From NCBI GenBank assembly GCA_009839725.1, contig VXPF01000056.1, forward strand, positions 1 through 60,384: a stretch of 60,384 nt of DNA. Direction: 5' to 3'. Below, in pieces: positions 25,860 to 39,436 of this stretch. A model generated the notes under the pieces. That model was given only the letters and a program-made list of their open reading frames with translations. It was not told where the DNA came from and searched no databases. Source of the stretch: Dehalococcoidia bacterium (GTDB taxonomy: Bacteria; Chloroflexota; Dehalococcoidia; Tepidiformales; Tepidiformaceae). Position 1 is the stretch's first letter. Every line of letters starts with the position of its first letter. The translations under genes were made by a program, and so were the position numbers.

Positions 25860-28337
25860 ATGAGCCGTATTCTCGATAGATTGAGCTGGCTGGTTACGGT
25901 TCGCCCGTACATCACGATCGCCATTCTCGTCCTCATCACCGTGGTCATGGTCATCGGCGCGGGGCGGCGCGCGGAGGTGATCGAGGGAGCGGCCCTCGCG
26001 TTCCTTCCCCCCGGCAACGCCGTCGCCAACGCGCTCAACGAGATCGAGGACGTCTTTACCGAGACCGGCGACGTCAGCGTGGTCACGATTATCTTCCGGG
26101 GCGAGGCGCTCACGCCCGGCGGGCTCGCCCAGATGGACGCCCTCGTCGAGGAGCTCGTCGCCGATCCGAAGATAGGCGCCCTGCTGGCGCCCGGTGATTC
26201 GGTCGGCTCACCCGCGTTGCTGTTCCGGGCCGTGCTCCAGGTGGACAGCTTCGATTCGGTCACGCAGGCGGAGATCGACGCCGCCCGCAACGTGCCAGAA
26301 GTCGCGGCAGCGCTCACCGCCCTGACCGGAGAGGACGCGGACGGCACGCCGGTCGCGATCGCCACCCTCACCCTCGTCGACACCGGCGACGAGCGGATCA
26401 AGGAGGCCGAGCGGACGCTCAACGAGGTGGCGATCGCCGACGAAGGCCCCCTGCGCGTGAGCAGCGTGTCGCCCATCGTGATCGAGGACGAGTACAAGGA
26501 GGCCACGGAGTCGGGGCTGGTGCCCCTGTTGGGGCTGGCGCTCATCCTGATTCTCGCCCTCATCCTGCTGTTCCTGCGCACGCTGTCCGATCTGCTGCTC
26601 ACCTTCGCGGGGCTGCTCATGTCGCTCATCTGGGTTATCGGCGTGGAGGGCTGGCTGGGACCGGATGCTCTTGGCTGGATCGGCCCGCCGAGCTCGCTCA
26701 CGGCAATGGTCCCCATCATCGTGATCAGCCTTACGGTGGATTACGCCATCCAGGCCGTCTCCCATTACCGCGAGCAGCGAACCGAGGGCACGTCCGTGAT
26801 CGACGCGGTCAGGACGGGACTGGGAAACGTCACCATCCCCCTGGTCCTGGCCGCCATCACGACCATGGTGAGCCTCCTCGCGAACCTGTTCTCCCCCATC
26901 TCCGTCGTGGGCGACTTCGGCATCGTTGCGGCGCTCGGCGTGGGCATGAGCCTGATCGTCATGCTCACGCTCCTCCCCGCCGCCCGCACGATCATCGATC
27001 GCAGGAGCGAGGCCCGCGGCAAGCTGAAGCCGCCGCGGCCGGTCTCGAACGCGCTCCCCGGTATCCGGCGCCTGGCGGAAGTGTTGGGGACATCGGTTTC
27101 GCGCCAGCCGGCGCCCTACTTCGTTGTCATCCTCGCAATCACGATTGGCTTCGGATTCGCCGCTACGAGGCTCGAAAGCGGCTTCGACATCCGCGACATC
27201 CTCCCCCGGGGCGGGGAGGTGCTGGAGGACATCGAGACCCTCGAGTCCGCCGTCGGCGGCTCGACGGAGATGGCCAGCATCCTCGTGAAGGCGGAAGCCA
27301 CCGAAACCCGCACCTACCTCAATCTCCATGACCTCCGGGAGGCGTTCGACGATCCGGAGCTCCGCCTGCAGGCGGCTGCCGGCCCCATCGTGGCCTCGTA
27401 CGAGCTGATCGTGCGGGACTGGATCAGCGACAGCGGGGAGCCGGGCGACAAGTACGACCCCGAGCTCGCCGCCCTCTTCCACGAGGCTTCCGCGGGCGTG
27501 GAGCTCGATGCGGAGCTGCTGCAGCAGTTCCTCGACAGGCTCAGGGAGATGGATCCCAGCGTCTCGCATGTGCTCGTCGATAACCCCGACGGTCCCGACT
27601 CACTGCTGGTCCAGTTCCCCGCCTTCTCCGCCGATCCCCAGACGACGAGGGCGCTCCAGGAGGAGCTCGAGGCCCTCTGGTTCGGCGAGGACGGCACCGT
27701 CACGGCCACCTCCCCGACCATCGTCTCCATCGCCGTCACGGACGAGATCACTGGCCGGCAGACGGAAGCCATCAGCACCACCATCGCGATGGCGTTCGGC
27801 ATCCTCGCCATCTTCTTCTGGGTCACCCTGCGGCAGCCGGTGCTGGCCTTCATCGCGGTGGCGCCCGTCGTGCTCGTGCTCATCTGGGTGCTGGGCACGA
27901 TGGCCCTGGTCGGCATTCCCTACACGCTCGTCACCGCGATCATCACCGCGCTCTCGATCGGCATCGGCGTGGACTACACCATCCACGTGGTCCACCGCTA
28001 CCGGGAGGAGTTCTCCCACGCGCGCAATCCCGAGCAGGCCGCCATCCGCACCTTGTCGACCACGGGATCGGCACTGCTTGGTTCGGCGCTGACGACGGCC
28101 CTCGGCCTCGGAGCGCTGGTGCTCGCGCCCACGCTCGCCTCGCGGGAGTTCGGGATCACGGCGGCGATCACCATCGCCTACTCGCTCATCATCGCGATCG
28201 TGCTGGTCCCGCCGGCGATGACGGTCTGGGGCGCCTACCAGAACATGAAGCTGCGCTCGATGGTTGAGCGCGTGTGGGAAGAGCTCGACGTGGCGATCGA
28301 GGGTGTCCACGAGCAGTACGAGCAGGAGTCGTCGTAG
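25860..28337 (+). CDS. MMPL/RND-superfamily transporter
   Basis: An 825-residue inner-membrane protein with the RND layout: one N-terminal helix, a large external loop, five helices, then a repeat of the same plan, giving 12 helices in all. Both membrane domains carry the MMPL/Patched proton-relay type motif (SLTVDYAIQAVSHYREQ and GIGVDYTIHVVHRYREE). Relatives export lipids, hopanoids (HpnN) or sterols, and the family includes eukaryotic Patched and NPC1. It is alone on its strand, divergent from imuB and ending 13 bases from the sterol methyltransferase gene. A lipid or sterol cargo is therefore plausible but inferred. No outer-membrane or periplasmic partner is adjacent. Confidence 0.87.
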   Translation: MSRILDRLSWLVTVRPYITIAILVLITVVMVIGAGRRAEVIEGAALAFLPPGNAVANALNEIEDVFTETGDVSVVTIIFRGEALTPGGLAQMDALVEELVADPKIGALLAPGDSVGSPALLFRAVLQVDSFDSVTQAEIDAARNVPEVAAALTALTGEDADGTPVAIATLTLVDTGDERIKEAERTLNEVAIADEGPLRVSSVSPIVIEDEYKEATESGLVPLLGLALILILALILLFLRTLSDLLLTFAGLLMSLIWVIGVEGWLGPDALGWIGPPSSLTAMVPIIVISLTVDYAIQAVSHYREQRTEGTSVIDAVRTGLGNVTIPLVLAAITTMVSLLANLFSPISVVGDFGIVAALGVGMSLIVMLTLLPAARTIIDRRSEARGKLKPPRPVSNALPGIRRLAEVLGTSVSRQPAPYFVVILAITIGFGFAATRLESGFDIRDILPRGGEVLEDIETLESAVGGSTEMASILVKAEATETRTYLNLHDLREAFDDPELRLQAAAGPIVASYELIVRDWISDSGEPGDKYDPELAALFHEASAGVELDAELLQQFLDRLREMDPSVSHVLVDNPDGPDSLLVQFPAFSADPQTTRALQEELEALWFGEDGTVTATSPTIVSIAVTDEITGRQTEAISTTIAMAFGILAIFFWVTLRQPVLAFIAVAPVVLVLIWVLGTMALVGIPYTLVTAIITALSIGIGVDYTIHVVHRYREEFSHARNPEQAAIRTLSTTGSALLGSALTTALGLGALVLAPTLASREFGITAAITIAYSLIIAIVLVPPAMTVWGAYQNMKLRSMVERVWEELDVAIEGVHEQYEQESS

Positions 28338-28350
28338 GAGGCGCCCGGGC

Positions 28351-29385
28351 CTAGAGGGGCTTTCGAGCCAGGAAGCAGTACAGCGGGGTGAAGATCCCCG
28401 TCTTGCCGCCCGCGACATAAGCCTCCGCCGTCCGATCCAGGAGCCGGATGACTTCCGCGGAGCCTTTCGGAAACAGCCGCACCGTTTCGGCCAGCTTGAC
28501 TCCTCCGATTATCGCTTTGCGGCCCCATGGGAGCCTGCGCACCGCGCTCCCCGGCGTTCCCTGGCGAGTCTCCATGGGCTGATACCAGGGTGTGGATGGT
28601 CCCTCCTGGACATCCCGGTCCACCCCCTCGAGGACCTCGAACCCGACCGCTTCAAGCGCCTGATTCACTTCCGCAAAGGTCGCGATGTCGTTCAGCGCAA
28701 TGCCGAGCATGAGTTCTTGCTTGATGGCCTGGTGGCGCGTGTCGTTTGGGTCGAACTTCTCCGTCAGGCACATCTCCTGGCCCCAGAGGAGGGCTCCGGG
28801 TTTCAGCACGCGGAAGATCTCCGCGAACGCGCCCTGCTTGTCCGGCGCGTGGCAGGTCGACTCGATGGCGTACCCCCGGTCGAAGGCGCCGTCCGGTATG
28901 CCGCTCATATCCATGAAGCTGCACGTCTCGTAGTCGACCATGTGGTCGAGCCCTGCCTCGGCGGTCAACTGCTTCGCCATCGCCAGCTGGATTTCGTTGA
29001 TGTTGATCCCTGAGACGCGGACGCCAGCCTCACGGACAACCCGGCGCATAGGGCCGCCGATTCCACAGCCGACATCGATCACGGCCATATCCCGTTGCAG
29101 TTCCAGCTTGGAGATCATCAACCGCTGATGCCGTTCCTGTGACTGCTCCAGGCTCTCCGAGGGCTTGAGCGGCGCGAAGTGCAGGGATTCGCTCCAGCCC
29201 CAGACCATGAACGCCGTGCACAGGTCGTAGTACTCCTTCGCCGTTTCGCTATGGGAGTAATCGCTCGACCCATCGGCGGCCATCGCTGCGACGTCGGTCC
29301 ACTTGTTGAAGTCGCGCACGCGACCTGTGACGTCGGAGCCGCTGTACGAGTGATTCAAGTCTTTCAGGAGCGTACGTAGCTGCAC
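28351..29385 (-). CDS. sterol C-24 methyltransferase (ERG6/SMT-like)
   Basis: The 344-residue protein lines up along its whole length with eukaryotic ERG6/SMT enzymes. A YYDLCTAFMVWGWSESLHF region (residues 52-70) matches the aromatic sterol-binding Region I (YEYGWG). SAM motif I is VIDVGCGIGG (103-111), and YAIESTCHAP (172-181) is the SMT signature. A C-terminal sterol-methyltransferase domain ends VAGGKTGIFTPLYCFLARKP. Family members methylate the sterol side chain at C-24 using SAM. The GTG start at 29385 has GGAGAAA upstream. It lies 80 bases after the GPP34-P450 stop on the same strand, so the two are likely co-transcribed. Other C30 isoprenoid substrates cannot be excluded. Confidence 0.88.
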   Translation of the reverse strand: MQLRTLLKDLNHSYSGSDVTGRVRDFNKWTDVAAMAADGSSDYSHSETAKEYYDLCTAFMVWGWSESLHFAPLKPSESLEQSQERHQRLMISKLELQRDMAVIDVGCGIGGPMRRVVREAGVRVSGININEIQLAMAKQLTAEAGLDHMVDYETCSFMDMSGIPDGAFDRGYAIESTCHAPDKQGAFAEIFRVLKPGALLWGQEMCLTEKFDPNDTRHQAIKQELMLGIALNDIATFAEVNQALEAVGFEVLEGVDRDVQEGPSTPWYQPMETRQGTPGSAVRRLPWGRKAIIGGVKLAETVRLFPKGSAEVIRLLDRTAEAYVAGGKTGIFTPLYCFLARKPL

Positions 29386-29465
29386 CGCGTGGGTTTCTCC
29401 CTTGCCTTTCGTCTATGGCCAGCCGACCGATGTGCCGAACGGAGTCCGAAGCGAACCAGCGCGCG

Positions 29466-31490
29466 TCAGGATGGGAGCTCGCGCCTCTTCTCGGCGATGA
29501 CGAACTTGATCTTCTTGCTGATGGAGAGCGAGGGGAACGGGTTGATCCGGAGCGGCTTGTTCTCGGGAGTCACCTTGATGGTGAAGTAGTGCGCCAGCAT
29601 CAGCAGGTTGGCGCTGAGCTGAAGCTCCATCCAGCGCGAGCCGAGGCACGTGTGCGTGCCCAGCCCGTACGGCGCGTAGCCGGGACTGCGATGCTCGTCT
29701 CGAGGGGGCAGGTAGCGGTCGATGTCAAACTTCTCGGGATCAGGGAAGACGTCGCTCATGTAGTGCGAGGCCGTCTGGGCGATGTGGATCTCCGATCCCT
29801 CGGGGAGTTCGTAGCCCTCCACGACGCAGGCGTTCATCACGGTCCGGATCGACACCGGGACGATCGGGTAGACGCGCATGGACTCCATGATGAACCGGTG
29901 GGTGACGTCGATCGCCTCCGTGTTGAAGTCCTCGGGGGAGGGATCGCCGTTGGCGAACAGGGCATCCGCTTCGGCGCGGATCTGCTCGTAGATCTCGGGC
30001 TGTGTCGCCATGGCGTATAGCGCGAAGCTGAGCCCGTCGCCGAGGTACACGCTCGCGATCAGCGGCGCCGAAAGCGCGAAACGCAGGTTCGACTCGGGGA
30101 GGAACTGAGGATCGCTTGCGTGCAGGCTGAGCAGGTCGTCGGCGAGGTCGCGGGGACATCCGGCCCGCTGGGCGGGGGTGTGGATGCCCTGGACGCGGTC
30201 CAGCAACGTCTCGATACCCCTCGCCTTCCGCTTCATGCCCGGAGTGCTCAGCATGAACTTGGGCAGCACCTTCACGACTCGCGTGGCGAGCGCTCGTTCC
30301 TTGTACACACTCAGGTCGTCGAGGAGGTCCTGCGACTGCACGCTGAGCATGAGCGGCGAAATCTGCGAATTGATCAGCTTCCGGGACATGGGGCATGCGG
30401 GGAAGGCATCTCCAACCTTCCAGGTCGCCATGTGCGCGCGGGCGTTGTTGAAAACGGTGTCCAACTGCCCTTCCAGCCGGGCACGCGAATAGGCAGGCTG
30501 CAGGGACTTGCGAAAGCGGAAGTGGTCGGCCCCGTCGAGGGAGGGGAGGATTCCGGACGCGCCATAGACCTTCTCGAACTCCTGGAGGTAGTCCTTGGCC
30601 CTCAGGAACGTGCGCCCGTGCCGGTGCGCCCAGCGATTGGTTTCGGGACCGGCGAGGAAGGTCATGGTGTCCAGGAACGGTGGGTTGAGCCTGAACACCG
30701 GGCCGTATTTCTCCGCGAGGTCGGCGAAGAAGGCCGGCAGGTTCCCGCTCCAGAGGCGCCGGTTGAGCAGCACCTTGTGCAGCGGAACCGTGGGGATTTC
30801 CTTGGTCAGCGTGGCGCGGCGAAGTAGCGGGCCGGCCAGGTTGTTGGCGACCGCATCGGCGATCGCACGGCCGATCAGATCCATCTTGCAGATGAGCTCG
30901 ACGCGCTCCTCGTGCTCTTCCTCGATGGGGAAGACGAAACGGAGGACGTCGCACGTGTTCGCGAGCGCGATGATGATGACATCCCGCGGGTCGGGAATCT
31001 CGTTGTTGTAGAGCACGTTGCTGATCCGCGTCGTCACGAACTCAGTCGAGCCATCCGCCGACCCGCCTGCTTCCGCGCGCTGCCAGGCGATGCGCGACAA
31101 CGTCCAGAACTCCCCGTCGTGGTACTGGAGGATCTGCATCGCAACCAGGCGATCCAGGGTTACATCGATGATCGACTCCGCATGCGGCGCGAGGCGCTCG
31201 ATCCAGTACTGGGCGTTCTGCTGGGCCGGTTCGTCGGCGATTTCCCGCAGGATGTCGTCGAGTGCGGCGTCTCCCGTCGGGGTCTTGTCCAGGAGAATGA
31301 GCGAGTCCATATCGGTGTCGATGCGGGAGATGAGGGACAGTTCCGCGAGCACGGCCCCGACAACCGCGCAGTTCAGATCCCAGCCCGGTACCTGGCGGAA
31401 GTAGCCGCTGTCCTCGTTGAGGAGCATGAGGAGGAGTTCATCGGGCAGGGTGAGCGTCCTGGTCGTCGGTTCTGCTGTCGCGGTTGTCAT
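29466..31490 (-). CDS. GPP34 (GOLPH3-like) domain fused to cytochrome P450
   Basis: A 674-residue two-domain protein. Residues about 14-215 match the GPP34/GOLPH3 family in order: LPDELLLMLL, VVGAVLAELSLISRI, a KTPTGDAALDDIL turn, then IPDPRDVIIIALA and KMDLIGRAIADAV. Residues about 230-674 are a cytochrome P450: ESMR (EXXR, 536-539), a FDIDRYLPPR region and the haem loop YGLGTHTCLG with Cys615. The I-helix reads VYLGDGLSFAL rather than AGxxTT, so the usual acid-alcohol pair is altered. GOLPH3 binds phosphoinositides in eukaryotes. The P450 lies next to the sterol methyltransferase, so an isoprenoid substrate is inferred; CYP51 identity is not shown. The ATG at 31490 has GGGGCTT upstream. Confidence 0.87.
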   Translation of the reverse strand: MTTATAEPTTRTLTLPDELLLMLLNEDSGYFRQVPGWDLNCAVVGAVLAELSLISRIDTDMDSLILLDKTPTGDAALDDILREIADEPAQQNAQYWIERLAPHAESIIDVTLDRLVAMQILQYHDGEFWTLSRIAWQRAEAGGSADGSTEFVTTRISNVLYNNEIPDPRDVIIIALANTCDVLRFVFPIEEEHEERVELICKMDLIGRAIADAVANNLAGPLLRRATLTKEIPTVPLHKVLLNRRLWSGNLPAFFADLAEKYGPVFRLNPPFLDTMTFLAGPETNRWAHRHGRTFLRAKDYLQEFEKVYGASGILPSLDGADHFRFRKSLQPAYSRARLEGQLDTVFNNARAHMATWKVGDAFPACPMSRKLINSQISPLMLSVQSQDLLDDLSVYKERALATRVVKVLPKFMLSTPGMKRKARGIETLLDRVQGIHTPAQRAGCPRDLADDLLSLHASDPQFLPESNLRFALSAPLIASVYLGDGLSFALYAMATQPEIYEQIRAEADALFANGDPSPEDFNTEAIDVTHRFIMESMRVYPIVPVSIRTVMNACVVEGYELPEGSEIHIAQTASHYMSDVFPDPEKFDIDRYLPPRDEHRSPGYAPYGLGTHTCLGSRWMELQLSANLLMLAHYFTIKVTPENKPLRINPFPSLSISKKIKFVIAEKRRELPS

Positions 31491-31735
31491 AAGCCCCAGT
31501 CCATTCCCCGATTGCGACTCTCTGGATCGACCAAGTTTGCCGCGGTGAACCTGTGGGTAGTGTAGCTCACGGGGCGCTGCGGAGGGCAACAAGCCGGCGG
31601 AAAGGCAAGGTGGGCGGGCACACGGAAGCAACCCGTTTCGGGATGAGCAAAAGAGGGGACTCTCGTATTCTGGATGAAGGTCCTGACCCGGAGCGAGCAG
31701 GTCTCCCAGAGGGGTCCCGCTCAGGGGGTGGAGCG

Positions 31736-32788
31736 ATGGTGACGGAGCTGCGAGAGCCAACGAAAACCGTGTCGCCCTCGCCCTTCCCCGAGGGCTGGTA
31801 CTTCGTCGAGACCCGCAAGGCCATTGAGCGGGCCGGGCTCATCGAGAAGACCTGGATGGGCGAGAAGATCGTCGCCTGGTGTGACGACAGCGGCCGGGTC
31901 TGCGTCGCCGAGTCGGTCTGTCCGCACCTCGGCTCCGACCTCGGCCCCGAGGCGGGTGGGCGCATCTGCGAGGACCGGCTCGTGTGCCCCTTCCACGGCT
32001 TCGAGTTCGATACCACCGGCCAGTGCGTCGCCACCCCCTTCGCCGCGCCGCCCCGATCGGCGAGGCTTCGCGTCTTCGAGACTCACGAAGTCGTAGGCAT
32101 GATCTTTGCCTGGTGGGGGGAGGGGGGACGCGAGTCCCAGTGGAGCCTTCCCGAAGACACGCTCGACCAGGAAGGCTGGAGCGACCTCTACGTCCAGAGC
32201 ATCCGCTTTCCCGGCCACCCCCAGGAGACCACGGAGAACTCCGTGGATATCGCCCACCTGCGCTACGTCCACGGCTACGACAACGTCGATCGCACCCACC
32301 CGGTTGGAGTCGACGGACACCTTCTCGTGAGCCGCTGGGACTTCCGGAGCGTCCGCAAGATCGCCAGGGTTGCCAGGCTCTCCCTCGATTGCTCCGCCCA
32401 CACCCGCGTCTTTGGGCTCGGCTACTCCTACGTGGAGGTTCGGGAGCACTCGATCCCCATGGACATGCGCCTCTGGATACTGGCAACACCTATCGACGGG
32501 ACGCTCATCGACCTCTACATGCCCACCCAGATGCGCCCCGCGCAGAATCCCAGGCGGCGAGTCATGGGCCTCTCATTCCTCCCCCACCACCTGCGCGCCG
32601 CCATTACGAACAGGTTCATGGCGGCCTACCAGCGCTCGGATGTCCTTCAGGACGTGACGATCTGGACCCGGAAGCAGTACCGCTCCCATCCCCGCCTCAA
32701 CCGCGCCGACGGCGAGATATCCCTGTTCCGGGACTACTGCGCCCAGTTCTACCCCGACGCCCACGAGGCGGACTGCACCGGTTCCTGA
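31736..32788 (+). CDS. Rieske non-haem iron oxygenase of the sterol/steroid type
   Basis: The 350-residue protein has a Rieske [2Fe-2S] site (CPHLG, Cys62/His64, and CPFHG, Cys84/His87). A catalytic domain with the mononuclear iron motif NSVDIAHLRYVHG follows (Asp171, His174, His179). The C-terminus ends with a DYCAQFYPD segment. This is the layout of cholesterol 7-desaturase (DAF36/Neverland), 3-ketosteroid 9-alpha-hydroxylase (KshA) and bacterial sterol C-4 demethylase SdmA. The exact reaction cannot be chosen from sequence alone. It is divergent from the P450 gene across a 245-base region, and no reductase partner is adjacent. The ATG at 31736 follows GGGGGTGGAG. Confidence 0.85.
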   Translation: MVTELREPTKTVSPSPFPEGWYFVETRKAIERAGLIEKTWMGEKIVAWCDDSGRVCVAESVCPHLGSDLGPEAGGRICEDRLVCPFHGFEFDTTGQCVATPFAAPPRSARLRVFETHEVVGMIFAWWGEGGRESQWSLPEDTLDQEGWSDLYVQSIRFPGHPQETTENSVDIAHLRYVHGYDNVDRTHPVGVDGHLLVSRWDFRSVRKIARVARLSLDCSAHTRVFGLGYSYVEVREHSIPMDMRLWILATPIDGTLIDLYMPTQMRPAQNPRRRVMGLSFLPHHLRAAITNRFMAAYQRSDVLQDVTIWTRKQYRSHPRLNRADGEISLFRDYCAQFYPDAHEADCTGS

Positions 32789-32822: not shown

Positions 32823-34754
32823 TCACCTCGCGGCGGTGCAGCCGACAGCCTCCTTGATTCGCCTTGGACCCGTTGTGACGGTGATGACGATCCCGGTCGC
32901 GTCTTGCTCGCCGACGGATACCCGTGCCTTGGCACCGGGGTCCGGTACGAGACTCGGGTGGGGAGACACAACGCACTCTCGTACGTAGTAGGAGTGCAGC
33001 GAGAGTTCAAAGGTCGCCCCTGTTCGCACATCAAGAGCGAACATGCCAGAGCCATCCCCATCCTTGCCCGTATAGCCATCCTGATCGTGAAGGGGCCAGG
33101 CTACGACCCAGGGTGGCTCCGTGTAGGGATTCCCCTCCACGTCGACGAGGGCGCCCCTGATCGTGGTGCAGAGTTCCGAGGCCGGCCGGGGGAGTTGGAT
33201 CACAATGCCCGTCCGGGCATCCTCGGGTAAGTCCAGCACCGTGATCGCCACGCGGCTGGTCGTGTATCCCTCTCCCCCGTACCAACCAAGGTGGCAGGGC
33301 GTGTCACCCAGGAACAGTGACAGGCGGTAGGTTCCCTCCAGGGCCACCCCGGAGAAGGCTCCGGTGTCGTCCGTGTTCATCCGCCAGGCCTTCCCCTCGC
33401 CCTGGGGGAGGGCCTCGACGCGAACCCCTGCCTGCCCTTCCCCACCCGGTCCAATCACCTTGCCCGCGACCTGGGGTCTCTGGGCAGCGAGGCTCGCGCG
33501 GTGGTCTTCGAATCTCTTGTAGAACTGGTCAATGGGCATGCCGAAGGCTTCGTGGAAGGCGCTCCGCCACCGGAAGACCTCGTTGCGAACGTCATAGAAG
33601 TCGTACAGCGCCGCCTCCCCCTGGTTCTCAACGATCCAGCCGGTGACGAGTGAGGCAAGGTGGTAGTTCGCCCCCGCGTCCCCGCCCACACCCATGTTCG
33701 TCTCGATGGCTTCGAGGCTGTTGCTGTTCGCGAGCCCGACGTCGAGTGCGTCGGCGTTCCATTGTTCGAGGGATCCAATGCCGATCAGGTCTTCGTACAC
33801 CGCCGCCGCATAGTTCGCGATGCCCTCGCTCAGCCACGAGGGCCCTATCCGTTCCTCGCCCCTGCCCCCGCCCCAGTTGCCCTCCGCGTCGCGCACGGCG
33901 AGATGGTGCTGCACGGCGTGGGAGTATTCGTGCGGCAACGCGGTGATGCAGGGGTTCCGTATGAACAGTGTTCTGGCGGCGTAGCCCCCACAGGTCATGT
34001 CGGCCTCCTCGTCTCCGAACAGGACTGTGAGGCCCGGTACGGCAACTCCGTGGCGTCTGACGAAGAACGCTACGACGTCGTCGACGTAGGCCCGCCGCTC
34101 CCGCATCTGCGCCGGCGTGAAGTCACCCCTGAACTCGATACGGGGCGGGGGTGTCAGTTGCCACCACTGCTTCGCCGACGAGATCCTCAGCCAGACGGGC
34201 CGTCCCTTCTCCAGCGTCTGTGGGGCGCTGCCGTCCCCTCCCAGCGTCTCGAGGAGGATGCCCTCCAGTTCCGCCAGGGCGACGCCCGTGGCGATGCCGT
34301 CGTCTCCCGCCCAGGTGACGAGGTTCCAGCCGCGACGTAGCTCTGCGAGGCCGGCCTGCAGGACGAGCGGCCGCTCCCAAGCCACCGTCTCCTCGCCTTC
34401 AAGGAAGAGCCACAGGCCAATGCCGGGCGATAGCGTTTCAAGGTCGCCGGTTGCGGTCTCGCCGTCCCGGTAGGCCAGGCGGTAGCGCTGCAGGTCTGCG
34501 TCCCAGGCGTAGGCGACGACAAGCTGCGGGATCGCCGCGAAGAGCGTCTCGACGCTCGCTTCGTCCTCGGTCCAGCCAGCCAGGTTCCACCCTGGCTGGA
34601 GCTCGGTCGTGACCGTGTCGCTGGCTGCCAGCGCGGTCCCCACGCCGGATGCCAGCGCCCAGAGCAACACCACAGCCGTCAGGACGCCGAGCAGACCTCG
34701 GGACCAGTACTCTCCAGATGGCAGCACGCGGCCAGCCCACCCCCGATCCGACAT
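32823..34754 (-). CDS. secreted HExxH (gluzincin-like) protein with GWNL module
   Basis: The 643-residue protein begins with a hydrophobic signal/anchor (GLLGVLTAVVLLWALASG). A two-part module follows, in which LQPGWNLAGWT (52-62) and ELRRGWNLVTWAG (138-150) mark the halves. A metalloprotease-like domain has HEYSH (275-279) and a downstream glutamate in WLSEGIANY (Glu310), the gluzincin arrangement. The C-terminal third looks like carboxypeptidase-regulatory or other beta-sandwich repeats (VAGKVIGPGGEGQAGVRVEA and GALVDVEGNPYTEPP). It probably acts outside the cell, and the substrate is unknown. Its start is 3 bases after the upstream permease stop. The same GWNL module occurs in the gene at 38105. 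Confidence 0.8.
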   Translation of the reverse strand: MSDRGWAGRVLPSGEYWSRGLLGVLTAVVLLWALASGVGTALAASDTVTTELQPGWNLAGWTEDEASVETLFAAIPQLVVAYAWDADLQRYRLAYRDGETATGDLETLSPGIGLWLFLEGEETVAWERPLVLQAGLAELRRGWNLVTWAGDDGIATGVALAELEGILLETLGGDGSAPQTLEKGRPVWLRISSAKQWWQLTPPPRIEFRGDFTPAQMRERRAYVDDVVAFFVRRHGVAVPGLTVLFGDEEADMTCGGYAARTLFIRNPCITALPHEYSHAVQHHLAVRDAEGNWGGGRGEERIGPSWLSEGIANYAAAVYEDLIGIGSLEQWNADALDVGLANSNSLEAIETNMGVGGDAGANYHLASLVTGWIVENQGEAALYDFYDVRNEVFRWRSAFHEAFGMPIDQFYKRFEDHRASLAAQRPQVAGKVIGPGGEGQAGVRVEALPQGEGKAWRMNTDDTGAFSGVALEGTYRLSLFLGDTPCHLGWYGGEGYTTSRVAITVLDLPEDARTGIVIQLPRPASELCTTIRGALVDVEGNPYTEPPWVVAWPLHDQDGYTGKDGDGSGMFALDVRTGATFELSLHSYYVRECVVSPHPSLVPDPGAKARVSVGEQDATGIVITVTTGPRRIKEAVGCTAAR

Positions 34755-37923: not shown

Positions 37924-38104
37924 AAGCGTTGCCCCCGAGTTGCGGGCCAGCGGCAGTGGGAGCGGGGAGCCTCAGCCCTTGAGGGGGATGGCGTAAATCG
38001 CGCCCGGCCCGTGATAGAGTCCTGGCCGCAGCGGGCATAACGGTCGTAGCTCCCTGATGGGAGCGCGGATGAGGGATGGCCCCTCTCTAGGAAGGAGGCA
38101 GCGC

Positions 38105-39436
38105 GTGAGGAAGCGCCTTTTCGCCCTGCTTCTCCTCTTCTCGGTGGCTGGCATCTTCGCCCTCACCTCGACGCCGCCGGCGGTGGGCGCGACTGACACG
38201 GAAGCCGCGACGACGGTCGAAGCGACCACGGTCCTTCAGCCCGGGTGGAATCTGGCCGGGTGGACGCAGAAGGAGTCGGGCGTCGGAGCCATCTTCGAGG
38301 CCATCCCCTCCCTCGAGCTTGTCTACGCCTGGGAGTCCGAAAGGCAGCGATTCAGCTGGGCGGTTCGCGATGCTCCGGGGGCCGTCGGCGACCTGGAGGT
38401 TCTCCGCCCGGGAATGGGGCTCTGGCTGTACCTCGGGGGCGGAGAAGCAGTTTCGTGGACGCGCCCCGTGGTCGCCGCATCGGCTCTCGTCGAGGTGCGC
38501 GAAGGCTGGAATCTCGTTGCCTGGGGCGGTTCTGATCGGTACGGGACTTCTAACGCCATCAACGACCACTCGGATTCGTTCGCGGAGGTGTGGGGTTGGG
38601 ATGCGACACGGCAGACCTTTGTGCCGCACAGGCCGGATCCAGGCGGCAGCCCCCTGGCGTCGGGCGCGCTGTCTCGTGGGAGCGGCTACTGGATCCGCTC
38701 CGCGGCTCACACGTATTGGGCCCAATCTGGCTGGAAGTGGCTCTTGCCCTGGGTGAAGCAAGACGCCCTTTCCAGTCTTAATTCCATCATCCGCAACAAT
38801 CCACCGTTGGCCTGGCAGATGTTCAGGGCGCCGTTCCTGGATCCGCCCTTTCTCCAGCGAGATGCACACGTGCTCGACACCCTTGATTTCTGGTCTAGCC
38901 CGGGCGACAGCGGGGAGCCTGCCTTGTTGGCGCAACTCGAGGCCACGCCGTGGTTCAGCGATGGCCTGGACGACAACGGCGCAGCGCTCCTGTTTGCGCT
39001 TTCCTACTCCCCTGCGGACTACCGGGCGGTCCTCTTCGAGTCGAATTATGTTGAATCCAGGAGGGTCGCGCTTTCGCTCGCCGGCGAAGTCAGCATGGCG
39101 ATCGTCAGCGATGTGCCGTTTCCAACCGACAGGGATGTCTTCGAAATCCTGGAGTCGGGCGCGCAAGCACTCGAGGCCTATCTGGGTGCGCCGTTCCCTT
39201 CCGAGGACATCATTCTGCATCTCGTCGGAAGTTCATTTCCGGGGTTTCGAACACCTGGTCGAGTGATTACCGTACAGCACTTGCCTCACGATGCCGAAAG
39301 GGTTGACAGGACTCGCTTCTTTCTCGTCGTGGCACATGCATCCAAGAGGACTATCTTTCACGAGTTAGCGCACCACTATCACGTTGGTGGCCCACTCTGG
39401 TTTATGAGGGGCTGGCGCATTTCCTGGAAGCCGTAG
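38105..39436 (+). CDS. secreted GWNL-module metalloprotease-LRR protein, 5' part (frameshifted)
   Basis: This frame begins at GTG 38105, eight bases after GGAGG, with a signal peptide (RLFALLLLFSVAGIFAL). It has the same two-part module as the gene at 32823 (LQPGWNLAGWT and VREGWNLVAWGG). A zinc-site motif HELAHHYH then appears, after which the frame changes into nonsense (MRGWRISWKP) and stops. In the next frame the expected continuation YEGLAHFLEAVADSE starts at 39403 and runs into the gene at 39490. One missing base at the T-run near 39401 explains the break. Whether this is a true mutation or a sequencing error cannot be told here. Confidence 0.75.
   Translation: MRKRLFALLLLFSVAGIFALTSTPPAVGATDTEAATTVEATTVLQPGWNLAGWTQKESGVGAIFEAIPSLELVYAWESERQRFSWAVRDAPGAVGDLEVLRPGMGLWLYLGGGEAVSWTRPVVAASALVEVREGWNLVAWGGSDRYGTSNAINDHSDSFAEVWGWDATRQTFVPHRPDPGGSPLASGALSRGSGYWIRSAAHTYWAQSGWKWLLPWVKQDALSSLNSIIRNNPPLAWQMFRAPFLDPPFLQRDAHVLDTLDFWSSPGDSGEPALLAQLEATPWFSDGLDDNGAALLFALSYSPADYRAVLFESNYVESRRVALSLAGEVSMAIVSDVPFPTDRDVFEILESGAQALEAYLGAPFPSEDIILHLVGSSFPGFRTPGRVITVQHLPHDAERVDRTRFFLVVAHASKRTIFHELAHHYHVGGPLWFMRGWRISWKP
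39398..39406 (+). other. frameshift point joining the two parts
   Basis: The bases read tggtttatg. Adding one T gives W-F-Y-E-G-L-A-H, which restores the gluzincin glutamate helix (compare WLSEGIANY in the gene at 32823). No slippery heptamer in the correct register is present, so programmed frameshifting is unlikely. Confidence 0.65.

Follow-up and report, generated by a model that had tools for sequence, protein, structure and literature searches.

A stretch of DNA from a Dehalococcoidia bacterium (assembly GCA_009839725.1, contig VXPF01000056.1) carries genes for a sterol methyltransferase (SMT) relative, a cytochrome P450 and a Rieske oxygenase side by side. The locus raises the question of what such a gene set does in a member of the Chloroflexota, and on whose sterols it would act. 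The window referred to below is the whole stretch analysed, 60,384 nucleotides in length. An earlier note on this DNA described the group as a sterol-type set belonging to a possibly split pathway; both parts of that description hold, as the SMT groups with sterol SMTs and the genome contains an isoprenoid cyclase gene. The parts that do not stand are the novelty in Chloroflexota, the plain C-24 type of the SMT and the SdmA type of the Rieske protein. With a probability of about 0.7, the four genes make up a cassette for sterol tailoring in bacteria associated with sponges and corals, the substrate of which would be the cell's own sterols here and host sterols in many relatives that lack a cyclase.

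The SMT-family protein (SMT1) is a divergent protein of 344 aa encoded at 28351–29385 on the minus strand. The P450 gene lies upstream on the same strand (29466–31487) and encodes a GPP34-P450 fusion of 673 aa, counted from the ATG at 31487; the two genes are only 80 bp apart and are therefore probably co-transcribed. The Rieske non-heme iron oxygenase, of the KshA_C type, is encoded on the plus strand at 31736–32788; its frame is open from 31553, and conservation places the likely start at about 31736. A gene for an 825 aa RND/MMPL transporter (25860–28337, plus strand) is convergent with that of SMT1, with 13 bp between its end and the stop of SMT1; it should be counted as the fourth member of the cassette. 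All four frames are intact, and a pseudogene or frameshift reading was dropped. The grouping of SMT, P450 and Rieske genes is real and not due to chance, given the linkage at named SMT1 loci that extend 4 kb or more to both sides: of 58 such loci, 47 have GPP34-P450 within 9 kb of SMT1 and 44 have a Rieske gene in that range. Among 393 genomes of the class, counted without regard to kinship, 39 carry the SMT, 38 carry GPP34-P450 and 37 carry both. A neighbouring family of 850 aa that overlaps the P450 is a probable antisense artefact and was disregarded in the neighbour clustering. A second copy of the cassette is found in a same-genus relative (L075, G242:C51, 9654–10474), with SMT1 in fragments and with GPP34-P450 and the transporter intact. 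Predicted secreted proteins with WNLAGWT repeats are encoded at 32823–34754 and 38057–39436 of the window, and a WNLAGWT-like secreted protein also flanks the sterol cluster on contig C29 of the same genome (C29:21946–24795).

The motifs FMVWGWSESLHF and YAIESTCHAP, on which the proposal of an ERG6-like SMT had been based, are present in SMT1. The protein contains a SAM-binding motif and matches Pfam Sterol_MT_C (PF08498, 62.9 bits against a cut-off of 21.7), CMAS and Methyltransf_11 (61.8 bits, above the cut-off). It is 39% identical to Arabidopsis SMT1 over 338 aa and 36% identical to yeast ERG6 over 306 aa, the latter reference sequence being Pfam-checked. In the tree, which includes eukaryotic references (the Pfam-checked ERG6 among them), the SMT1 clade falls inside the sterol SMTs, including those of yeast and plant. 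Its support is 100/100, and its stem branch has a length of 1.04–1.06 changes per site; the SMTs are split from non-SMT methyltransferases at 94/86, a value obtained with three distant, long-branched outgroups. The two outcomes that the earlier note named as refuting it, an SMT placed in a non-sterol methyltransferase clade and a genome devoid of an isoprenoid cyclase gene, are thus both absent.

The active site of SMT1 is altered. A comparison of 134 different SMTs, 90 of them of the window type, showed the following replacements in the SMT1 clade (ERG6 numbering): Y81 by M (90/90), E82 by V (83/90), F89 by L (90/90), A221 by W (90/90), Y223 by Q (89/90) and W225 by M (90/90). SMT1 accordingly does not retain the ERG6 residues of region I (YEYGWG) and region IV (YEW), whereas in these bacteria most SMT2-type enzymes still have Y81 and E82, and position 225 remains aromatic in them. 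The name sterol C-24 methyltransferase is therefore apt as regards the sterol SMT family, but not as regards the plain C-24 type. These changes point to an altered substrate or an altered position of methylation; with the equivalents of Y81, E82, Y223 and W225 replaced, the substrate may be something other than a desmosterol-like sterol, or no sterol at all.

Two other explanations of SMT1 have to be weighed here. It might be an ordinary C-24 paralogue, the cassette being the other half of the sponge-symbiont cluster already known, for de novo synthesis of 24-alkyl sterols. SMT1 belongs to the same family as SMT2 of contig C29 and shares about 40% identity with it, the genome contains a full synthesis cluster, and in Nitrospirota the cassette is contiguous with such a cluster. 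This explanation is nevertheless unlikely, in view of the six replaced positions, which are conserved in ERG6, and of the absence of a cyclase from most SMT1 carriers. Alternatively, the SMT fold might be re-used for a non-sterol substrate, another isoprenoid or a hopanoid. The long stem branch and the changed active site would suit this idea. A fold search against the PDB, with RebM/AtmM and prenyl methyltransferases among the matches listed for SMT1, would suit it too, but was uninformative in that no SMT was among these matches. It appears quite doubtful all the same, because GPP34-P450 adjoins an oxidosqualene cyclase (OSC) gene and SMT1 adjoins the sterol cluster in several genomes. A hopanoid as the general substrate is excluded by the several SMT1 carriers without any cyclase. 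A third type of SMT, distinct from both SMT1 and SMT2, occurs at loci L041–L054 and L232–L239 (class genomes g38 and others); its motifs are FY[EV]FGWGTTFHF or FYEYGWGQSFHF, YSFE..CHAP and [VI]DWC.

The P450 is confirmed by a match to PF00067 (131 bits), and a P450 fold is present in the structure model of the fusion protein. The earlier note missed the N-terminal GPP34 (GOLPH3-type) domain, which occupies residues 14–214 (PF05719, 107 bits) and weakly matches GOLPH3 in the PDB (3kn1, E 9e-4). The ExxR motif and the heme cysteine are invariant in 81 of 81 GPP34-P450 homologues. The I-helix is unusual; Tyr481 is invariant, and most members have Ala, Thr or Gly where a threonine is usual. The threonine is missing in most members, which counts against the sterol-tailoring reading. 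The best PDB match of the fusion is 7wzl (87 bits), and CYP51 is among the better matches with 70 bits. The P450 fold is common to CYP51 and the window protein; the latter, however, differs in its GPP34 domain and its low CYP51 score, and its assignment as CYP51 was rejected, the true CYP51 on C29 scoring 343 bits. No relevant report of a GPP34-P450 fusion was found in the literature. The source genome (G000, 2.8 Mb) has about 35 P450 matches, an unusually large number.

The Rieske protein matches PF00355 (57 bits) and KshA_C (PF19298, 76 bits). Its CxH/CxxH and N-D-H-H ligands are invariant in 66 of 66 homologues, and its best PDB match is KshA (87.5 bits). Proteins of this type are presumably tied to the DAF-36/Neverland oxygenases. 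The earlier assignment to a DAF36/KshA/SdmA type is borne out for KshA_C and fails for SdmA: NCBIfam NF052579, with its cut-off of 600 bits, gives a score of 35.7, and the SdmA-like protein of this genome is located on C29. The enzyme could be catabolic. In a pathway of steroid catabolism, the KshA-like Rieske protein and the P450 would open the rings and side chains of host sterols, and the methyltransferase would be incidental; the KshA_C domain, the PDB match and the many P450s of the genome are in line with this. Such a role is highly improbable, since the methyltransferase is the common member of the set, methylation is not a catabolic step, and the flanking genes encode reductases and biosynthetic proteins, not catabolic ones. 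The KshA_C domain and the intact iron ligands are shared with KshA, but the similarity is modest and the context of the window gene is biosynthetic. Seco-steroid degradation was rejected, as the dioxygenase of the seco pathway (TIGR03213) gave no match above the cut-off in eight SMT1 carriers.

The transporter matches MMPL (149 bits) and, in a sterol-sensing-domain-like region, PF12349 (47 bits). In Chloroflexota relatives, the RND/MMPL gene adjoins SMT1 or GPP34-P450. The MMPL type is nearly exclusive to Chloroflexota, and five other phyla have an AcrB-type RND gene nearby instead; a transporter thus seems to be wanted, but its type is not fixed. The transporter shares the MMPL/RND superfamily and a sterol-sensing-like match with BstA and HpnN; its scores, however, are far below both NCBIfam equivalog cut-offs (48.9 of 1400 and 116 of 752 bits, respectively), and both assignments were rejected.

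A substrate for the cassette can apparently be made in the same cell. A search of the source MAG (2.83 Mb, 160 contigs, 92.5% complete, 2.1% contaminated) for OSC and squalene epoxidase, as proposed in the earlier note, found both, fused, on C29. This OSC is one of two triterpene cyclases in the genome; the other, on contig C88, is a strong squalene-hopene cyclase. In the fusion, squalene epoxidase (91 bits) is N-terminal, and the OSC, which carries the DCTAE motif, is C-terminal (TIGR03463, 709 bits against a cut-off of 851, for a query without the last 33 aa). The same contig encodes an SdmB-like dehydrogenase (292 bits, cut-off 600), an SdmA-like Rieske protein (400 bits, under the cut-off of 600), an ERG4/ERG24 reductase (237 bits) and CYP51, which scores 343 bits to a solved CYP51; several of these scores fall short of the strict equivalog cut-offs of NCBIfam. 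A canonical second SMT (SMT2) is encoded on the strand opposite to the cluster. A bacterial de novo sterol pathway, with squalene epoxidase, OSC with DCTAE, CYP51 and SdmA/B, is therefore encoded on one contig, and the sterol genes of the genome are indeed split between the window contig and C29, two contigs joined by binning only. A relative assembled into nine contigs (G195) has both clusters. Squalene epoxidase and OSC are separate or TAG-interrupted in two genomes (L193 and L194; G287 and G318), whereas the two are fused in the majority of relatives within the class.

Clusters of the C29 kind are known. Steroid gene clusters (CSGs) have been reported from Ircinia symbionts and from ten bacterial phyla of sponges, including Dehalococcoidia (PMC9531527). 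The gene order given by Kelly et al. 2022 is that of C29, namely a reductase (DFR/SdmB), a further gene, ERG24, CYP51, LSS/ERG7 and then an SMT on the opposite strand (PMC9531527). Brown et al. 2023 demonstrate functional bacterial SMTs and mention fused SMO/OSC proteins (PMC10070321). Genes for de novo sterol synthesis have thus already been described in bacteria of this kind, and sterol genes are not new in Chloroflexota. The cassette of the window is distinct from these published clusters: all three core CSG genes are missing from it, and in most carriers it occurs in their absence. SMT1 shares the SMT family and the occurrence in sponge symbionts, in some cases in clusters, with the SMTs treated by Brown et al. 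2023, but it lacks the aromatic residues of ERG6 (PMC10070321). As far as the literature found allows, the cassette is undescribed; a SAR202 pangenome paper makes only general remarks on sterol oxidation.

Direct linkage to sterol synthesis genes is found in a minority of the named loci, three of 58 having at least three cluster genes in range. In Nitrospirota (L127, L129, L134, L135), the SdmB–SdmA–ERG24–CYP51–SE/OSC–SMT2 cluster, in part or in full, is contiguous with SMT1 and GPP34-P450, and in two Chloroflexota genomes (G128, G205) the sterol cluster is near GPP34-P450, the transporter and the Rieske gene. A GPP34-P450 paralogue adjoins OSC in G233, G287 and G318. An ERG4/ERG24 reductase gene flanks SMT1 at two Dadabacteria loci, the carriers of which are cyclase-free; at one of these, which was Pfam-checked, the reductase and an MMPL transporter are encoded beside the Rieske protein and SMT1. 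Within the 393 genomes, again with kinship ignored, GPP34-P450 is present in 18 of 19 genomes with OSC; OSC is absent from 20 of the 38 GPP34-P450 carriers of the class.

Relatives of SMT1 are widespread. One scan of named genomes returned 258 of them; the best 80 of the 258 span 11 phyla, and the interpretable MAG names among these 80 refer to sponges or corals. The code jk18x occurs in an Ircinia study, and the codes RHO, COS, IRC and APA are taken to be Rhopaloeides, Coscinoderma, Ircinia and Aplysina, genera listed in a reef-sponge study. This is a strong hint that the SMT1 cassette is limited to sponge and coral hosts. Phyla are intermixed in the SMT1 tree, with short inner branches and at least 16 changes of phylum, which suggests horizontal spread; a mobile cassette is the best reading. 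OSC is present in 10 of 50 SMT1 genomes, which belong to several phyla, and absent from 40. PF13243 cyclases are missing altogether from seven carriers, among them a Dehalococcoidia genome assembled as one contig (G332) and a Dadabacteria genome whose record bears the title chromosome (G424); the others are G322, G006, G132, G387 and G423. No CYP51 was found in these seven. A Nitrospirales chromosome (G402) has no CYP51, and its sole cyclase is of the hopene type. SMT1 carriers that have neither cyclase nor CYP51 must obtain the substrate externally, the host being its simplest source. The suggestion of the earlier note that the cell may modify sterols taken from others would thus apply to relatives that carry the cassette and lack a cyclase.

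The cassette probably remodels sterols that are either self-made or host-derived. We infer that the substrate is a sterol, as well as the order of the steps, the methylated carbon and the direction of transport. Sterol would be supplied by uptake or internally, here possibly through the SE–OSC fusion, CYP51, the ERG24-like reductase, SdmA, SdmB and SMT2 of C29. SMT1 would transfer a methyl group from SAM to the sterol side chain, GPP34-P450 and the Rieske protein would oxidise the sterol, with the GPP34 domain perhaps tethering the P450 to the membrane, and the RND/MMPL protein would carry the sterol across the membrane.

A more specific and rather speculative extension of the sterol-tailoring reading concerns the carbon that is methylated. 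Brown et al. 2023 describe the enzymes of C-26 methylation as undiscovered, report that sponge and bacterial SMTs make (epi)codisterol, a proposed substrate of a 26-SMT, and show in Fig. 3 that some clustered SMTs are inactive on desmosterol and 24-methylenecholesterol (PMC10070321). Because such SMTs make (epi)codisterol, because a C-26 enzyme is described as still missing, and because SMT1, which occurs in the right organisms, has an altered active site, SMT1 might be the sought sterol C-26 methyltransferase of sponge holobionts, or another side-chain methyltransferase that is not of the C-24 type. It would then add an extra carbon to sterols, host-derived or self-made, that are methylated at C-24 and have a terminal double bond, and bacteria of many phyla would extend, oxidise and re-export sterols. 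The SMT1 clade is a concrete candidate, with a fixed active-site change, a span of 11 phyla in the best 80 of 258 relatives and an occurrence both near sterol clusters and in cyclase-free genomes.

The earliest animals are traced through fossil sterols with unusual side chains, and the cassette could help to explain the unusual sterols of sponges. If the C-26 proposal were true, bacteria would be the source of some of the biomarker signal of sponges (26-methylstigmastane, aplysterol-type sterols). More generally, the cassette suggests that sponge microbes may edit the sterols of their host, besides making their own.
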